Source: Lewinellaceae bacterium
Lineage (GTDB): Bacteria > Bacteroidota > Bacteroidia > Chitinophagales > Saprospiraceae
Assembly (NCBI GenBank): GCA_947476195.1
Contig: CANJPT010000052.1
Span: 1-32,736, forward strand
DNA: 32,736 nt
Direction: 5' to 3'
Below the pieces are notes generated by a model, which was not told the DNA's origin, did not search any database, and was given only the letters and a program-made list of their open reading frames with translations. Within the stretch, counting starts at the first letter, position 1, and every line of letters begins with the position of its first letter. A program made the position numbers and the translations under genes. This document shows, piece after piece, positions 26,230 to 31,766 of this stretch.

Positions 26230-27702
26230 ATGAAGATATTCCAACTTACAAAAATCTTTGCACTCGGGGCATTCTTTCTTGGGATGATGCTCATACCACA
26301 GTCTTGCGGTGAAAAAGAAATCAACACGTCTTCGCTTCCTAATGCACACGACTACAACTATAAAGTGTACTGGGAATGGAACGAAACATTTCTTCAAATT
26401 GACCGCTACGCTAAAGGCTATCGTCCGGGCCCAGGCCCTCGTGCTTTGGCTTATCTCGGCCTTTCGGCTTACGAATGTGTAGTAGCTGGGATCCCTGAAA
26501 ATCGCTCGATTGCGCCACTTTATCCAGGTCTTGATTTGCCACAGGCGGATCCCAATCTGGAGTACTACTGGCCTGCATGCGTCAATGCGTCATATGCTTA
26601 CCTTATGGAGCGCTTTTTCCCGCACATGCAGAACGACCCTAACGCAAATGTCACCCATGCTTTTTCGTTGATTGAAACTACGCGTGCTAAATTGCATGGT
26701 ACCTATGCTCAAGAAACTACGTCTGAAATTCTGGATCGTTCTGAGAAATTCGGCCGGGATGTAGCTGCTGCTGTTTATGCCTGGGAGCAAACCGACGTAG
26801 CGGGTCACAATGCATTCCTGAATCCTCAGCCTACTTCGTACTCACCGCCTGTAGGGCCTGGCTTATGGGCGCCAACACCTCCGGACAATAACCGTGCGAT
26901 GTTCCCATATTGGGGGCAGGTGCGCACATTTGCACTCCGACCTGACGAAAGATTGTGCCGCCCTCCGATCGCTTATGGTGAGAATACCGCTTCTCCTTTC
27001 TATTCTCAGGCACTGGAGGTATACAGCACCGTAAATACGATCAAGAACCCACCAGCTGGTTTAGAGGATTGGGCTGCTAACCAACGTTGGGCCGCTATTT
27101 TCTGGAGTGATGATATCACAAATCTGACATTCGCTCCCCCTCCACGCCTTGTGGCTGTACTTAACCAGGTGGCCGCCAACGAACAACTTGACCTTGCTGG
27201 TTGCGCAGAAGCTTATGCCAAAATGGGCCTGGCGCTCAGCGATGCTGGTGTTGCACTCTGGAACTCTAAATATGTGTACAATGTAGAGCGTCCAGTTAGC
27301 TACATCCGCCGAGTAGTATCCCAACAATATCCTGAAGCAGCCAACTGGCTAAGCCTATTGGACGCTACTTCAGTGGGTGGAATGTATGGGATTACCCCTG
27401 CTTTCCCGGCGTATCCTTCCGGTCACTCTGGCTTTGGCGGTGCTGGGGGTAAGATCCTTTCCTCGTTCTTCGAATATAATGCCAGCCACCCTGGTACCTA
27501 TACTTTCACTGACCTGTGTCACCTGCTCCGTACAGAGTTCCTGGGTACGCCGCGCGTATTCACTTCCTTCTCTCAGTTAGGCGAAGAAGATGCTTACTCC
27601 CGTATTCCATTGGGTGTTCACTTCCGCATGGACTGCGAAGTTGGTCTCGAAGTGGGGCGTTTGGCTGCACAACGGGTCTTGGAACTTCCCTGGAAGAAAT
27701 AA
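26230..27702 (+). CDS. vanadium-dependent haloperoxidase-like lipoprotein (PAP2 superfamily)
   Basis: The protein has 490 residues. A lipoprotein signal ends near LIPQSC (Cys26). The C-terminal half carries the vanadate/phosphate pocket: Lys347 and Arg354 in LWNSKYVYNVERP (seven apart, as Lys353/Arg360 of the fungal chloroperoxidase), PAYPSGHS with Ser397-Gly398-His399, and SRIPLGVHF with Arg458 and the axial ligand His464 (six apart, as Arg490/His496). Intact ligands predict a haloperoxidase or a vanadate-sensitive acid phosphatase, anchored at the envelope. The nearest neighbour is a paralogue downstream, with a strong terminator between them. Halide preference cannot be read. Confidence 0.88.
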   Translation: MKIFQLTKIFALGAFFLGMMLIPQSCGEKEINTSSLPNAHDYNYKVYWEWNETFLQIDRYAKGYRPGPGPRALAYLGLSAYECVVAGIPENRSIAPLYPGLDLPQADPNLEYYWPACVNASYAYLMERFFPHMQNDPNANVTHAFSLIETTRAKLHGTYAQETTSEILDRSEKFGRDVAAAVYAWEQTDVAGHNAFLNPQPTSYSPPVGPGLWAPTPPDNNRAMFPYWGQVRTFALRPDERLCRPPIAYGENTASPFYSQALEVYSTVNTIKNPPAGLEDWAANQRWAAIFWSDDITNLTFAPPPRLVAVLNQVAANEQLDLAGCAEAYAKMGLALSDAGVALWNSKYVYNVERPVSYIRRVVSQQYPEAANWLSLLDATSVGGMYGITPAFPAYPSGHSGFGGAGGKILSSFFEYNASHPGTYTFTDLCHLLRTEFLGTPRVFTSFSQLGEEDAYSRIPLGVHFRMDCEVGLEVGRLAAQRVLELPWKK

Positions 27703-27736
27703 GATAATTCACGATTGCTAGCTCAATCTTGGAAAT

Positions 27737-27781
27737 AAAAAATGGGGCGAATGGCTATGTGCTGTTCGTCCCATTTTTTTT
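27737..27781 (+). terminator. Rho-independent terminator after the first haloperoxidase gene
   Basis: AAAAAATGGGGCGAA (27737-27751) pairs with TTCGTCCCATTTTTT (27765-27779) over 15 bp with one G-T wobble; the right arm ends in a T tract. Loop TGGCTATGTGCTG. Confidence 0.87.
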
Positions 27782-27883
27782 GTTCGGGTCCTCCATACTG
27801 ATAAATATTAGATAAGCGCTGGCGACACGATAGTTTGGTTGTTGTAAAAAAGCAATACCTTTCTATCAAATATTTCTCAGATT

Positions 27884-29341
27884 ATGAAAACCACGATCTT
27901 TTTAAGATGCATTTCGTTCAGCCTCTTTTGCGCTATTGTCTCCTGTGGACCTTCAGATCCAACCCCACCGGAACCTCAATTCCCACTGGCCAGCCAATTC
28001 GACTATCAGGTATACTGGAAGTGGAATGAATTGTTCAAAAAATTAGATCGCGTTGCTACAGGTTATCGGCCTTGCCCTGCGCCACGAACCCTGGCATATC
28101 TGGGGCTTTCGGCTTATGAATCGGTTGTGCCAGGAATGCCCTTTCACAAATCACTTGCGCCATTTTATGGCCTTAATTTGCCGCAGACAGACCCCAAACT
28201 TGAATACATCTGGCCTGCTTGTGTGAACGAATCATACGCTTACCTGCTGGAGCGATTCTTCCCGCATTTACAGAACAGTCCGAATCCAGCTGCTTCTGCA
28301 GCATTTGCCGAGATTGAGGTATTGAGAACCTACTTTCACGGTGAATTTGCTGAAGGGGGAACCAAGGCCATCTTATGCCGTTCTGAAAAGTTTGGGCAGG
28401 ATGTAGCCGCTGCGGTTTACACCTGGTCACAAACGGATATGGCAGGTCACAACGCATTTTTGGATCCTCAACCTACTTCCTACCTCCCACCATCAGATCC
28501 CGGGGATTGGCAACCAACTTATCCGGATTATCAAAAAGCTTTTTTTCCGCAATTCGGTCAAGCACAGGTCTTTGCAATGAATCAGGATGAATTATTGTGC
28601 AGACTGCCCATACCGTATAGCACACTACCAAGTTCTCCATACTACGCGCAAGCATTCGAATTGTACAACACAGTCAACGCCATCAAAGACCCGCCTTCAG
28701 GGTTAGAGTTCTGGGCTGCCGAACAGCATTGGATAAGTGAATTTTGGAGCGATGACAATCTCTATTCTACGTTTTCAGCTGGTACTCGTTGGATATCTAT
28801 CGCAGATCAAATGGTAGCTAATGAGAAACTTGATCTGGCAATTTGTGCAGAGATGTATGCCAAGCTAGGGCTCGCCCTAAATGATGCTACAGTGGCAGTT
28901 TGGAAATCAAAATATGTAGATAATGTGGAGCGCCCCATTAGTTATATCGGTCAGGTAATCCAAATTGATTACCCTGCAGCGGCCTATTGGAGTACATTGC
29001 TCAATAACCCAATAAATGGGGCTACGGGCATCACACCGGCATATCCTGCTTATCCTTCTGCACATGCTGGTTTCGGCGGTGCTGGAGCTAAAATATTATC
29101 TTCTTTTTTGGAAAACACGCCAGGACATAGTGGCAACTATATTTTTACAGATCTTTCTCATGAGTATGAAATAAACTTTTTAGGAACACCAAGGGTCTTT
29201 TCTTCTATTGTTCAAATGGGCGAAGAATGCGCTTATTCCAGAATTCCTTTGGGTGTTAATTACCGAATAGACTGCGAAGTTGGTCTCGAGGTAGGTCGCC
29301 TTGCCGCACAAAGAGTATTAGAGTTGCCCTGGAAAAAGTAA
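27884..29341 (+). CDS. haloperoxidase-like paralogue lacking the axial vanadate His
   Basis: The 485-residue protein is a tandem paralogue of the preceding gene, collinear along its length and ending in the same AAQRVLELPWKK. A lipoprotein signal ends in IVSC (Cys21). The vanadate pocket has Lys343 and Arg350 seven apart, but PSGH is changed to PSAH (Ala393), and SRIPLGVH is changed to SRIPLGVN: Asn459 (codon AAT at 29258-29260) replaces the His that binds vanadate in haloperoxidases and is the nucleophile in PAP2 phosphatases. Arg453 is kept. The reading frame is intact and conserved elsewhere, so this looks like a maintained pseudoenzyme or altered enzyme, not decay. The start at 27884 gives the signal peptide. 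Confidence 0.88.
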   Translation: MKTTIFLRCISFSLFCAIVSCGPSDPTPPEPQFPLASQFDYQVYWKWNELFKKLDRVATGYRPCPAPRTLAYLGLSAYESVVPGMPFHKSLAPFYGLNLPQTDPKLEYIWPACVNESYAYLLERFFPHLQNSPNPAASAAFAEIEVLRTYFHGEFAEGGTKAILCRSEKFGQDVAAAVYTWSQTDMAGHNAFLDPQPTSYLPPSDPGDWQPTYPDYQKAFFPQFGQAQVFAMNQDELLCRLPIPYSTLPSSPYYAQAFELYNTVNAIKDPPSGLEFWAAEQHWISEFWSDDNLYSTFSAGTRWISIADQMVANEKLDLAICAEMYAKLGLALNDATVAVWKSKYVDNVERPISYIGQVIQIDYPAAAYWSTLLNNPINGATGITPAYPAYPSAHAGFGGAGAKILSSFLENTPGHSGNYIFTDLSHEYEINFLGTPRVFSSIVQMGEECAYSRIPLGVNYRIDCEVGLEVGRLAAQRVLELPWKK

Positions 29342-29354
29342 TCCAGAAACACAA

Positions 29355-29387
29355 ACGGGGCGATTGGTTGAAAACCAATCGCCCCGT
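29355..29387. terminator. bidirectional hairpin between convergent genes
   Basis: ACGGGGCGATTGGTT (29355-29369) and its exact reverse complement (29373-29387) form a perfect 15-bp stem with a GAA loop. There is no long T tract. It lies between the haloperoxidase paralogue and the convergent thioredoxin-like gene, so it could end both transcripts. Confidence 0.75.
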
Positions 29388-29430: not shown

Positions 29431-29964
29431 TCAATCCTTCCCGGCTTTATATTTCTCCCAGGTTGTTTTGTTGTACAGTTCTTCTGATGCAAATTTGAGT
29501 TCTTTCATCAAATCAGGCGATTCTTTAAAGCCCGGAGAGATCATGATACGTTCGTATTTTTCGTTCAGATATACCAACGTTGGATAACTCATTTGCCCAT
29601 CTAATAGTGCGACGGCAAGGGAATGTGCGCCGCCGCGCCCATTATCGTTTGGGACAAAGCTGAAGGTTTGATCGCTGAACTTAATGTCTCTACGTTGTTC
29701 TGCATTGAATTTAACAGGGTAAAAATTGGCCGAAATATAGGCGGCCACTGCTGGGTCGGAAAACGCGCCTTTATCCATTCTTTTACACCAGCCGCACCAG
29801 TCGGTGTAGACGTCTATCATCATTTTTTTGGGCTTTGTTTTATTGAGTTCTACCGCTTCTTCCCAGGTATACCATTTCAGTATTTCAGGCTCAGGAGTTC
29901 GGAATGATTGGGTCGCGACGGCGATCGCAGCGAACACCAGAACGAAGAGGGCAATTTTTTTCAT
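29431..29964 (-). CDS. secreted thioredoxin-like protein
   Basis: The 177-residue protein has an N-terminal signal peptide or anchor (MKKIALFVLVFAAIAVATQS) followed by a thioredoxin fold. WCGWC (Cys57, Cys60) in DVYTDWCGWCKRMD is the redox motif, and the cis-proline turn is SYPTLVYL (Pro128). The arrangement W-hydrophobic-E-E-A-V-E-L-N, KPKKMMIDVYTDWCGWC and DPAVAAYISANFYPVKFNAEQ is typical of periplasmic DUF255/thioredoxin_7-like proteins of Bacteroidota. It probably reduces or exchanges disulfides outside the cytoplasm; the partner is unknown. It lies 111 bases downstream of a glycosyltransferase gene and is convergent with the haloperoxidase paralogue. Confidence 0.9.
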   Translation of the reverse strand: MKKIALFVLVFAAIAVATQSFRTPEPEILKWYTWEEAVELNKTKPKKMMIDVYTDWCGWCKRMDKGAFSDPAVAAYISANFYPVKFNAEQRRDIKFSDQTFSFVPNDNGRGGAHSLAVALLDGQMSYPTLVYLNEKYERIMISPGFKESPDLMKELKFASEELYNKTTWEKYKAGKD

Positions 29965-30028
29965 ACTTAATGGTTGTTTTAAATGAATAAACTCCGGGGT
30001 CAGTTGAACCGCTCAGAAAAAAGGTAAA

Positions 30029-30036
30029 CAAAAGTA
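30029..30036 (-). promoter_or_regulatory. candidate -7 box of the thioredoxin-like gene
   Basis: The minus strand reads TACTTTTG, an exact TAnnTTTG match, 64 bases before the ATG at 29964. No clear -33 element. Confidence 0.4.
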
Positions 30037-30075
30037 CAGGGTCTGGTTATTTACTTTCGTTAAGAATTGGCAAAA

Positions 30076-30951
30076 CTACTTCAGTATAACATAGTTCCGA
30101 TATTCCCCTGGCCGCCATCCAGTCCATTTTTCTATCCAATTGGAAATACGCTCCTTCAGGGGCCATTGTACCCGGGTCGGGTCACTTTCAAAATGCCAGT
30201 TCTGTGCTTCGATCCGTGGTAACATCACGGCGGGGTGGGTTCCTTCAAAACGTTCAAGTGGCTCTAAACCATCATAAGGAAAGGTTTCATAGGTGCCCAC
30301 GTGGTTCAGCGCATCTTCATCATTGAGATACATTTTTTTGAAATGCAGTTGCTTCTGCTGTTGCACCCCTGGATGTCTTACCCATCCGTAATGATGGATA
30401 TATTCAGGGATCAGTCGGACATGCAATTTATCCCCTTTGCCTTTTCTGAATCCTTGCGCGTCCCGGTACGAAAAGATCTGCTTGTCATTTCGTACGATCC
30501 GGATCTCGCGTCGATACCAGCATCGACTTTTACCAATAAAGTCATAAGAGCCGTAAAAGTGGCGATAATTGAACAACAGCCCCTCTGTTTTCGGATCATC
30601 CAGCCAGCGTTCCATACTTGCCCGGATACCAGGAAGTGCATTTTCATGTACGCATTCATCACCCTGGATATAAAAACACCAGTCGTATTCGGGTGGAATG
30701 GCCTGGAATGCTTTGTCCGTTTCCAAAGCCAATACCCGTCCGCCTTCCCGGAGAGAATCGTCCCATTCCGTTTCTATAATATGGACCTTAGGATCCCCGA
30801 TACTGCGCACCAGCTCGAGCGTGGCATCTTCTGATTTCCCGACTGCAACTAAGAAATAATCGCAAATGGGTAGAATGGAGGTGATGGCTTGCACGACGGG
30901 ATAGTCGTAAGTGAGCGCATTTCTAACAAAGGTGAATCCGGCAACTTTCAT
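30076..30951 (-). CDS. glycosyltransferase family 2-like protein
   Basis: The protein has 291 residues from the ATG at 30951 (MKVAGFTFVRNALTYDYPVVQAI); a frame extension to 31062 is unlikely because this beta-strand start is typical. It has a GT-A-like fold: IICDY/LVAVGKSEDATLEL for the nucleotide-sugar strand and YIQGDECVHEN (about 95-105), where QGDE (96-99) is the metal-binding DxD-like motif. A basic central region (RCWYRREIRIVRNDKQ) and GTHPAVMLPR follow. No membrane segments are visible, so it may be cytosolic or membrane-associated. The acceptor is unknown. It is divergent from the peroxiredoxin-like gene. Confidence 0.85.
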   Translation of the reverse strand: MKVAGFTFVRNALTYDYPVVQAITSILPICDYFLVAVGKSEDATLELVRSIGDPKVHIIETEWDDSLREGGRVLALETDKAFQAIPPEYDWCFYIQGDECVHENALPGIRASMERWLDDPKTEGLLFNYRHFYGSYDFIGKSRCWYRREIRIVRNDKQIFSYRDAQGFRKGKGDKLHVRLIPEYIHHYGWVRHPGVQQQKQLHFKKMYLNDEDALNHVGTYETFPYDGLEPLERFEGTHPAVMLPRIEAQNWHFESDPTRVQWPLKERISNWIEKWTGWRPGEYRNYVILK

Positions 30952-31151
30952 AGGGGCAAAACTACGATAGACTTGTCGGGCTGAAAGGCTTTTTCCTGCC
31001 AGAAGCATCCACCTCAATAAGACAATTGTACTTTTCGACGAGAACCGCAGCACATTCCACAAATGTGGCTTATTTTTGAGGCGAATTTGAAAAGTACCAA
31101 CCCCAATGCCTCTTTTCAGAGTCTTATAAACTAAATTAAAGCCTATTTAAA

Positions 31152-31766
31152 ATGGAGCGCAGAAAAAAACTCCCGCAGATCGGAGATGTTGCCCCCGCCT
31201 TTGAGGTCCAAACCGAAAAAGGCCTGGTCCGCTTCCCGGAGTACAGCGAAGGCTGCTGGTGCATTTTTTTTGCACACCCGGCCAACTTTACCTCGGCTTG
31301 GACGATGTTTTCTGCTTTTCTTGCGATGAAGGAACGCTGGCTCAATGAACGCAATACTAAAGTACTTGCTCTTACGAATGAATCATTGCGCCCAGACAAC
31401 CAATGGGCAGACAAAGCGCGTCGTTTCATTGGTATTTATCTGAAAGCACCGGTCATTGAAGACCTCGATTTTCATATTGCTAAACTTTTTGGACTCGCTT
31501 CTGGTCGTCGACCACAGCATGGTTGCGATCGTCTTGCACTCATTATTGACCCGGGAGGTATTGTCCGCTTTATTATCCATCGTCCTTTGCCCAATATTGA
31601 AACGGCCCTGCTTGATATTGAGCGCGAATTAGAACGTTTACAGGGAAAGATCATTGAGCCTGCAATTTTTGTGCCTTTGAATGTTGAAGAGCAATTGGAT
31701 GCTTCCGGAGCGTTTTATAAAAGTGAGCCAGCCTATTTTTCCAGAAAGAAAATCAATCCGAATTAA
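31152..31766 (+). CDS. peroxiredoxin-fold protein lacking the peroxidatic cysteine
   Basis: The 204-residue protein aligns with AhpC/TSA peroxiredoxins of the Prx6/1-Cys type: IGDVAPAFEVQTEKG at the N-terminus, the FFAHPANFT strand-turn, NESLRPDNQWADKARRF, GCDRLALIIDPGGIVRFI and a long C-terminal dimer-type extension (IEPAIFVPLN). The catalytic site normally reads PADFTPVCTTE with the peroxidatic Cys; here it is PANFTSAWTMF, with Trp50 in its place (codon TGG at 31299-31301). Other Cys (35, 37, 125) lie elsewhere. Peroxidase activity is therefore doubtful, although the frame is intact. A single-base change from TGC/TGT would be enough, so a sequence error is also possible. It is divergent from the glycosyltransferase. 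Confidence 0.82.
   Translation: MERRKKLPQIGDVAPAFEVQTEKGLVRFPEYSEGCWCIFFAHPANFTSAWTMFSAFLAMKERWLNERNTKVLALTNESLRPDNQWADKARRFIGIYLKAPVIEDLDFHIAKLFGLASGRRPQHGCDRLALIIDPGGIVRFIIHRPLPNIETALLDIERELERLQGKIIEPAIFVPLNVEEQLDASGAFYKSEPAYFSRKKINPN

Follow-up and report, generated by a model that had tools for sequence, protein, structure and literature searches.

The window analysed here is a 32,736-nucleotide stretch from a Lewinellaceae bacterium (family Saprospiraceae; GenBank contig CANJPT010000052.1). It carries two genes in tandem on the + strand, which encode lipoprotein-like relatives of vanadium haloperoxidases of 490 and 485 amino acids (aa). The first (copy 1) has a complete vanadate pocket. 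By predicted fold and reconstructed descent the second (copy 2) is also a vanadium-haloperoxidase paralogue, but it fails on the defining axial ligand, with an asparagine in place of the histidine. Axial-histidine loss recurs in this protein family, mostly with companion changes, so copy 2 is one instance of a wider pattern. With moderate confidence, we read copy 2 as a selectively maintained, non-catalytic lipoprotein of the cell envelope that binds an oxyanion or another ligand. This reading ranks ahead of a repurposed vanadate-free enzyme, which in turn ranks ahead of a partner of copy 1.

Active-site pocket of the tandem copies

Both open reading frames (ORFs) are intact at the coordinates given by the initial annotation (Table 1), and the two proteins are 61% identical (483 aligned codons). 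PAP2 was the sole Pfam family found for either, with copy 1 above and copy 2 below the cut-off, and an NCBIfam search of both copies gave no match. The cysteine at the lipobox position (C26 in copy 1, C21 in copy 2) is invariant across 69 aligned homologues. The assignment of both copies as lipoproteins, already made in the annotation, is therefore well supported by the alignment.

The pocket of copy 1 is complete (K347, R354, S397-G398-H399, R458 and H464) and contains the full set of a vanadium-dependent haloperoxidase, i.e. K, R, S-G-H, R and axial H. In the chloroperoxidase (CPO) of Curvularia, the pocket is numbered K353/R360, S402-G403-H404 and R490/axial H496 in the descriptions given by PMC9144378 and PMC10278073. 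The annotation had copy 1 matching the spacing of this fungal enzyme. This is correct inside each motif, but not from one motif to the next, and among solved structures an iodoperoxidase from Zobellia, not the fungal enzyme, is the nearest relative.

Copy 2 retains K343, R350, S392, H394 and R453, whose Lys, Arg, Ser, His and Arg equivalents hydrogen-bond the vanadate oxyanion. Two pocket residues are altered, the glycine of the SGH motif to Ala393 and the axial histidine to Asn459. Both changes had been noted in the annotation, together with retention of the remaining pocket residues, and all of this recurs in the orthologue of a second genome (G229). In PAP2 phosphatases, the same third-motif histidine is the nucleophile; with Asn459 at this position and a PAP2 score below the cut-off, copy 2 does not qualify as one of these either. 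The CPO equivalent of the altered glycine, Gly403, is described as stabilising a vanadate oxygen (PMC9144378).

A second genome with the same pair

A scan of genome contigs revealed the same tandem pair in a Saprospiraceae metagenome-assembled genome (MAG) of the same genus (locus L038, JAUSMG010000044.1; evidently G229:C270 of the genus search). Its copy 1' and copy 2' are 87% and 72% identical to their window counterparts. Copy 2' reads PSAHA and GVNY, with the Ala and Asn of window copy 2. Because this form is kept in an orthologue only 72% identical, sequencing error or drift is an unlikely source of it, as far as two genomes can tell. No copy 2 with a histidine turned up, the sole other orthologue having Asn.

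The genus search covered 42 genomes, 40 of them with a match. Proteins grouping with copy 2 were found in only two, the window's own (G000) and G229, and copy 1 orthologues in eight, these two included. Several of the genomes are incomplete (<90% complete), which makes the absence of copy 2 from a genome weaker evidence than an empty site. Four genomes have such a site (G222, G203, G209 and G208): there the thioredoxin-like gene (fragmented in G203) comes after copy 1, with no copy 2 in between. The contigs of G199 and G219 stop shortly after copy 1, and the copy 2 site is not readable.

Conservation of copy 2

Between the two carriers, the pairwise ratio of nonsynonymous to synonymous substitution rates (dN/dS) was 0.058 (NG86) or 0.077 (YN00) for copy 1, and 0.094 or 0.119 for copy 2, at a dS above 1, i.e. 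saturated. The dN of copy 2 was about 2.5 times that of copy 1 (0.203 vs 0.082, NG86). Neither copy 2 contains a stop or a frameshift.

Conservation was also assessed against a reference of 205 relatives with an intact pocket and a length of 440 aa or more, in which 65 alignment columns are each conserved at 90% or above. This reference excludes the remote paralogues L006 and L007 and eight ORFs without the axial histidine. Copy 2 breaks seven of the 65 columns (W228F/Y, R232Q, P303A, F392Y, G398A, R434E and H464N, in copy 1 numbering). All seven are broken in both genomes, six of them to the identical residue, and no column is altered in one genome alone. The annotation had described copy 2 as conserved apart from two residues, which holds for the five oxyanion residues; the altered conserved positions number seven, not two. 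As both known carriers share the altered set, it most simply predates their split. Among the eight copy 1 orthologues, seven had no column changed and one had a single change. As a control, 218 intact-pocket pairs of like identity differed at a median of 1 (mean 1.24) of the 65 columns, and the copy 2 pair at 1; the control pairs were drawn from the set that defined the columns, which favours them to look conserved.

The longest run identical in both copy 2 proteins, residues 281-310, had a length reached by 17 of 5000 shuffles, in a test that ignores the clustering of conserved sites found in any protein. It includes the loop aligned with Asp292 of CPO, which in a computed complex of that enzyme is among the residues close to the substrate (PMC10278073). 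With a catalytic residue lost and the rest conserved (two genomes, saturated dS), copy 2 has the profile of a pseudoenzyme under selection. The impression is of a single episode of change followed by stasis.

The C-terminus, where the annotation had noted 12 conserved residues, is identical between the window copies over the last 23. This is weak evidence, because the LPWKK ending is the family consensus and copy 2 of the second genome differs inside those 23 residues. Gene conversion was judged an unlikely cause of the shared C-terminus: a 20-base identical run is followed by synonymous differences (alignment read by eye).

Duplication history

A careful tree was calculated for 42 homologues (relatives with 54% identity or more to copy 1, to which copy 2 and copy 2' were added), with the five pocket columns excluded. 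The two copy 2 proteins, the PSAH...GVN form with conserved Asn, formed the clade anticipated by the annotation (support 100/100; two genomes), on a stem of 0.72 changes per column. Its sister group is made up of the eight copy 1 orthologues (98/98), and the ten proteins together were supported at 100/99. A late duplication confined to the G000/G229 lineage was disfavoured (approximately unbiased test, p-AU 0.032), with the copy 1 clade of eight excluding copy 2 (98/98); the long stem of copy 2 calls for long-branch caution and leaves this rejection not final. On the tree, the simplest reading would be an older tandem duplication, followed by conversion of copy 2 and its subsequent loss in several species.

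Recurrent loss of the axial histidine among relatives

A census of the family gave 224 distinct homologous ORFs after duplicates and contained fragments had been dropped. Letters in both motif columns were present in 220, and 218 of at least 280 aa, from 95 genomes and including the window's two copies, entered the tree and the final counts. All listed matches of the genus search down to E 4.3e-41 were taken, weaker ones from the window's own genome only. Many matches of 35-45% identity were left out, so the frequencies describe relatives near copy 2.

The axial histidine was lost in eight of the 218 homologues: copy 2 and copy 2' (Asn), L094 (G209, Cys), L138 (G024, Asn), L159 (G084, Cys), L126 (G231, Asn), L128 (G226, Asn) and L129 (G211, Gln). 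Five changes were inferred, a parsimony count on one quick tree that was flagged for long branches, including L159 and L138. The SGH glycine was altered in seven of the eight (L094 retains it) vs 3 of the 210 others, and the halide-site Phe also in seven (L129 retains it) vs 2 of 210. Pro303 was altered in five of eight vs 6 of 210. A change at W228 was not associated with axial loss (2/8 vs 21/210). The Fisher tests of co-change ignore relatedness; in five independent tree pairs, the glycine changed in the same direction in four and showed no difference in one, and with five pairs a sign test cannot reach 0.05.

The cage of K, R, S, H and R is whole in copy 2, copy 2', L094 and L159. L138 has an Arg replaced by Ser; L126, L128 and L129 have neither the second Arg nor the SGH His, and L126 and L128 are also without the Ser. 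Most of the pocket is altered in L126 and L128, and the dN/dS of this pair, 0.052-0.062 at an unsaturated dS of 0.37-0.48, indicates that it is under purifying selection. A full-pocket paralogue of the same two genomes (L106/L107) gave 0.41-0.56 at a dS of about 0.02, with too few changes to weigh. The difference in dS between the two pairs may mean that transfer or conversion gave the two genes separate histories. Among the copies examined, every one of the eight genomes with axial loss has one or more paralogues with a full pocket; 60 of the 95 genomes are multi-copy.

Tentatively, and at low confidence, we suggest that Saprospiraceae repeatedly convert haloperoxidases by a coordinated change of the axial His, the SGH Gly and the halide-site Phe, often with the loop Pro. 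The site would thereby gain a new job: for example, it might run a vanadate-free reaction, or it might sense, buffer or present an oxyanion on the envelope, be it vanadate, phosphate or a phospho-ester. Copy 2 would be the cleanest case, with the rest of its cage intact and frozen. A single common job for all converted sites is at odds with the cage residues also being gone in four of the eight.

Changes of single pocket residues were seen as well. A small clade of four has three members (L077, L080 and L111, from G040, G235 and G234) in which the axial His is kept and the SGH Gly is Ser, Asp or Ala. The fourth member (L081, G141) retains the Gly, and the altered trio is possibly an intermediate step. 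Two otherwise open ORFs have SGR for SGH (L029:1492-2892, G174), or Gly for the second Arg and Phe for the halide-site Trp (L188, G061).

Predicted fold and related proteins

AlphaFold2 models of copies 1 and 2 had a mean pLDDT of 94.1 and 94.9 (copy 2 pTM 0.92). The best Foldseek matches of both were to the vanadium iodoperoxidase of Zobellia galactanivorans (TM score 0.84-0.86 on target length; for copy 2, 4usz/4cit at E 2e-20 to 4e-20), and the model of copy 2 has the overall haloperoxidase fold. The nearest solved structures by sequence were likewise 4cit (E 6e-23 for copy 1, 3e-21 for copy 2) and then the Curvularia CPO. In the alignment, the Zobellia enzyme itself has W, K, R, F, S-G-H and R...H. 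However, it is only about 24-25% identical (Foldseek alignments), and its Phe, Gly and His are Tyr, Ala and Asn in copy 2.

The CPO of Curvularia inaequalis (1IDQ) has the same fold and pocket logic. Its H496A mutant (1VNH), reportedly inactive, is without the very residue that copy 2 has lost naturally; however, it is a laboratory mutant and not an evolved paralogue, and copy 2 also alters the equivalents of Gly403 and Phe397. By its title, 3BB0 is apo-CPO with a trapped phosphate intermediate, which is consistent with the same histidine being the PAP2 nucleophile. PhoN and PhoC, bacterial acid phosphatases of the PAP2 superfamily, share a common core fold (E 2e-3 and weaker) and the Pfam PAP2 domain with copy 2, which differs in having no equivalent of their nucleophilic His and a PAP2 score of 23.4 bits vs the cut-off of 27.2.

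Haloperoxidase homologues that do not halogenate are known already: NapH3 (8CXL) and MarH2 are described as non-halogenases in PMC12871659 and figure as napyradiomycin-type biosynthetic enzymes in PMC8407142. NapH3 is a solved fold neighbour of copy 2, and its PDB title names an alpha-hydroxyketone rearrangement; however, it is remote, at about 16% identity to copy 2 (Foldseek). A statement from 2025 has all vanadium haloperoxidases known so far holding vanadate via an axial histidine (PMC11871015). A literature search covering open-licence papers found no report of natural axial-histidine loss in haloperoxidases.

Function of copy 2

The sequence shows that copy 2 is most closely related by descent to the copy 1 lineage, has a predicted haloperoxidase fold, and has kept five oxyanion residues and lost the axial histidine. 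Without the latter, it would be unable to hold vanadate by the bond that peroxidation requires, and the phospho-histidine on which PAP2 phosphatases rely could not form either. An oxyanion resembling phosphate or vanadate may still be bound reversibly by the Lys-Arg-Ser-His-Arg cage. An oxyanion may occupy the site even when the axial His is missing, because the CPO H496A crystal 1VNH is tabulated with VO4 in PMC8407142. Most likely, copy 2 would serve as a non-catalytic lipoprotein of the envelope that binds an oxyanion or another ligand, its site being reshaped for a new ligand by Tyr387, Ala393 and the loop of residues 281-310.

Several points weigh against such a binding protein. The retained cage residues could serve fold stability, and the side chain of Ala393 might block the site. 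A shared oxyanion-binding role is not implied by the axial-loss homologues, because half of them have a broken cage. Copy 2 is dispensable, as four related genomes keep copy 1 and have an empty copy 2 site. The copy 2 clade consists of two genomes only, both drafts (G000 in 224 contigs, L038 a MAG), and dS between them is saturated.

A possible, if rather unlikely, alternative is a repurposed vanadate-independent enzyme, in which His394 and the cationic cage would catalyse another reaction (rearrangement, isomerisation or lyase) by analogy with NapH3, a fold neighbour called a non-halogenase homologue. The retention of all cage residues other than the axial His in both genomes, and the longest identical run, around the Asp292-aligned loop, speak for this reading; against it, no obvious biosynthetic cluster was seen among the nine window neighbours run through Pfam (no cluster-finding program was run).

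Copy 2 might instead be a regulatory or structural partner of copy 1 in a hetero-oligomer, as in many pseudoenzymes, which we consider less likely again. The tandem linkage to a full-pocket paralogue in both genomes is compatible with this, as are the full-pocket paralogues in all eight axial-loss genomes, but a majority of the 95 genomes are multi-copy anyway. Copy 1 of the two carriers has no excess of shared unique residues, with 3 inside the range of 0-6 in the other 27 pairs. A possible terminator hairpin lies between the genes, and the closest solved relatives, 4CIT and 4USZ, are listed as monomers in PMC8407142. The missing co-change and the hairpin speak only mildly against an obligate complex of copies 1 and 2. 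The initial annotation had proposed a new function for copy 2, a fair inference from the sequences; its three candidates (regulator, binding partner and altered cofactor) were not separated, apart from the missing co-change as a weak point against the obligate complex.

It is improbable that copy 2 is still a haloperoxidase of weaker or altered halide or metal preference, holding vanadate by hydrogen bonds only or with Asn as the axial ligand. The retained cage and the VO4 tabulated for the H496A crystal fit this option, but the Gly and Phe of the vanadate and halide site are altered alongside the His in most axial-loss homologues. Decay or a sequencing or assembly error, to which the long stem, the faster dN and the four empty sites might point, is very improbable and was rejected, as the annotation had also argued for decay: Asn and Ala recur in an independent genome, the copy 2 pair differs at one conserved column like the control median, and dN/dS is about 0.1 (0.09-0.12, saturated dS) between frames free of stops and frameshifts.

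Whichever function a non-catalytic copy 2 has, natural paralogues without the axial ligand, with signs of selection on the remainder and with recurrent companion changes, amount to a mutagenesis by nature that probes the requirements of the vanadate and halide sites. They also call for caution in annotation, as some family members labelled 'haloperoxidase' or 'PAP2' probably carry out neither reaction. The pair of an intact and an altered copy within one genome offers material for testing the role of these lipoproteins.

Gene neighbourhood

Table 1 Features of the tandem haloperoxidase locus, in window positions.
Feature	Position	Strand	Basis
Copy 1, vanadium-haloperoxidase-like lipoprotein, 490 aa, full pocket	26230..27702	+	Pfam PAP2 31.7 bits (cut-off 27.2); 4cit E 6e-23
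Copy 1 K347...R354 (equivalents of CPO K353/R360)	27268..27291	+	Alignment
Copy 1 S397-G398-H399 (equivalents of CPO S402-G403-H404)	27418..27426	+	Alignment
Copy 1 R458...H464 (equivalents of CPO R490/H496; H464 at the axial vanadate ligand position)	27601..27621	+	Alignment
19-bp hairpin between the copies, A-rich 5' arm, U-rich 3' arm, possible intrinsic terminator	27737..27779	+	-27 kcal/mol, z -8.3
Copy 2, putative pseudo-haloperoxidase lipoprotein, 485 aa, axial His to Asn	27884..29341	+	Pfam PAP2 23.4 bits, under cut-off 27.2
Copy 2 F224 and Q228 (family W and R; Y and Q in G229)	28553..28567	+	Conserved-column comparison
Copy 2 residues 281-310, longest run identical in both genomes, with the loop aligned with CPO Asp292 and A299 (family Pro)	28724..28813	+	Alignment
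Copy 2 Y387 (family Phe, halide site) and S392-A393-H394 (family SGH)	29042..29065	+	Conserved-column comparison
Copy 2 E429 (family Arg, 99.5%)	29168..29170	+	Conserved-column comparison
Copy 2 R453...N459 (family R...H; N459 in the place of the axial His)	29240..29260	+	Alignment
15-bp hairpin between convergent copy 2 and thioredoxin-like gene	29355..29387	-	Terminator-like on - strand only; T-rich tail for the thioredoxin-like gene
Thioredoxin-like protein, N-terminal hydrophobic stretch (by eye), conserved downstream neighbour	29431..29964	-	Pfam Thioredox_DsbH, Thioredoxin_7; synteny
AhpC/TSA-type peroxiredoxin, neighbour common to L038	31152..31766	+	Pfam; synteny

The hairpin between the copies may act as a terminator, and a similar stem was seen by eye 3' of copy 1 in G229 and G222. 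Its absence from the list of a consensus terminator scan, which returned 5 terminator-like sites vs 3.4 expected from shuffles, counts against this role.

Pfam named seven of the nine neighbours (amylase, MFS, trehalase, PfkB, aminotransferase, thioredoxin-like and peroxiredoxin). The downstream order of thioredoxin-like, Pfam-unnamed and peroxiredoxin genes is kept in L038, and the unnamed gene resembles a glycosyltransferase by eye only. The surroundings thus have a redox flavour (window 29431-31766), with the thioredoxin-like and AhpC/TSA peroxiredoxin genes adjoining the haloperoxidase locus in the second genome too.

Elsewhere in the family, haloperoxidase genes were seen next to signalling genes. 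In a recurrent cassette (e.g. L089:1719-7520 of the window's own genome, C96), one or more haloperoxidase genes are divergent from a response regulator, a histidine kinase and another haloperoxidase. Regulator and kinase matches occurred together in 28 of 209 loci (overlapping loci included). In three stop-to-stop ORFs of 935-948 aa, a sensor histidine kinase appears by eye to be fused to a haloperoxidase domain via a hydrophobic, lipobox-like segment: L140:2863-5631 (G024:C198), L078:527-3337 minus (G202:C2) and L177:534-3338 minus (G146:C164). A Pfam search of L140, the one of the three so searched, gave HAMP, HisKA, HATPase_c and PAP2.

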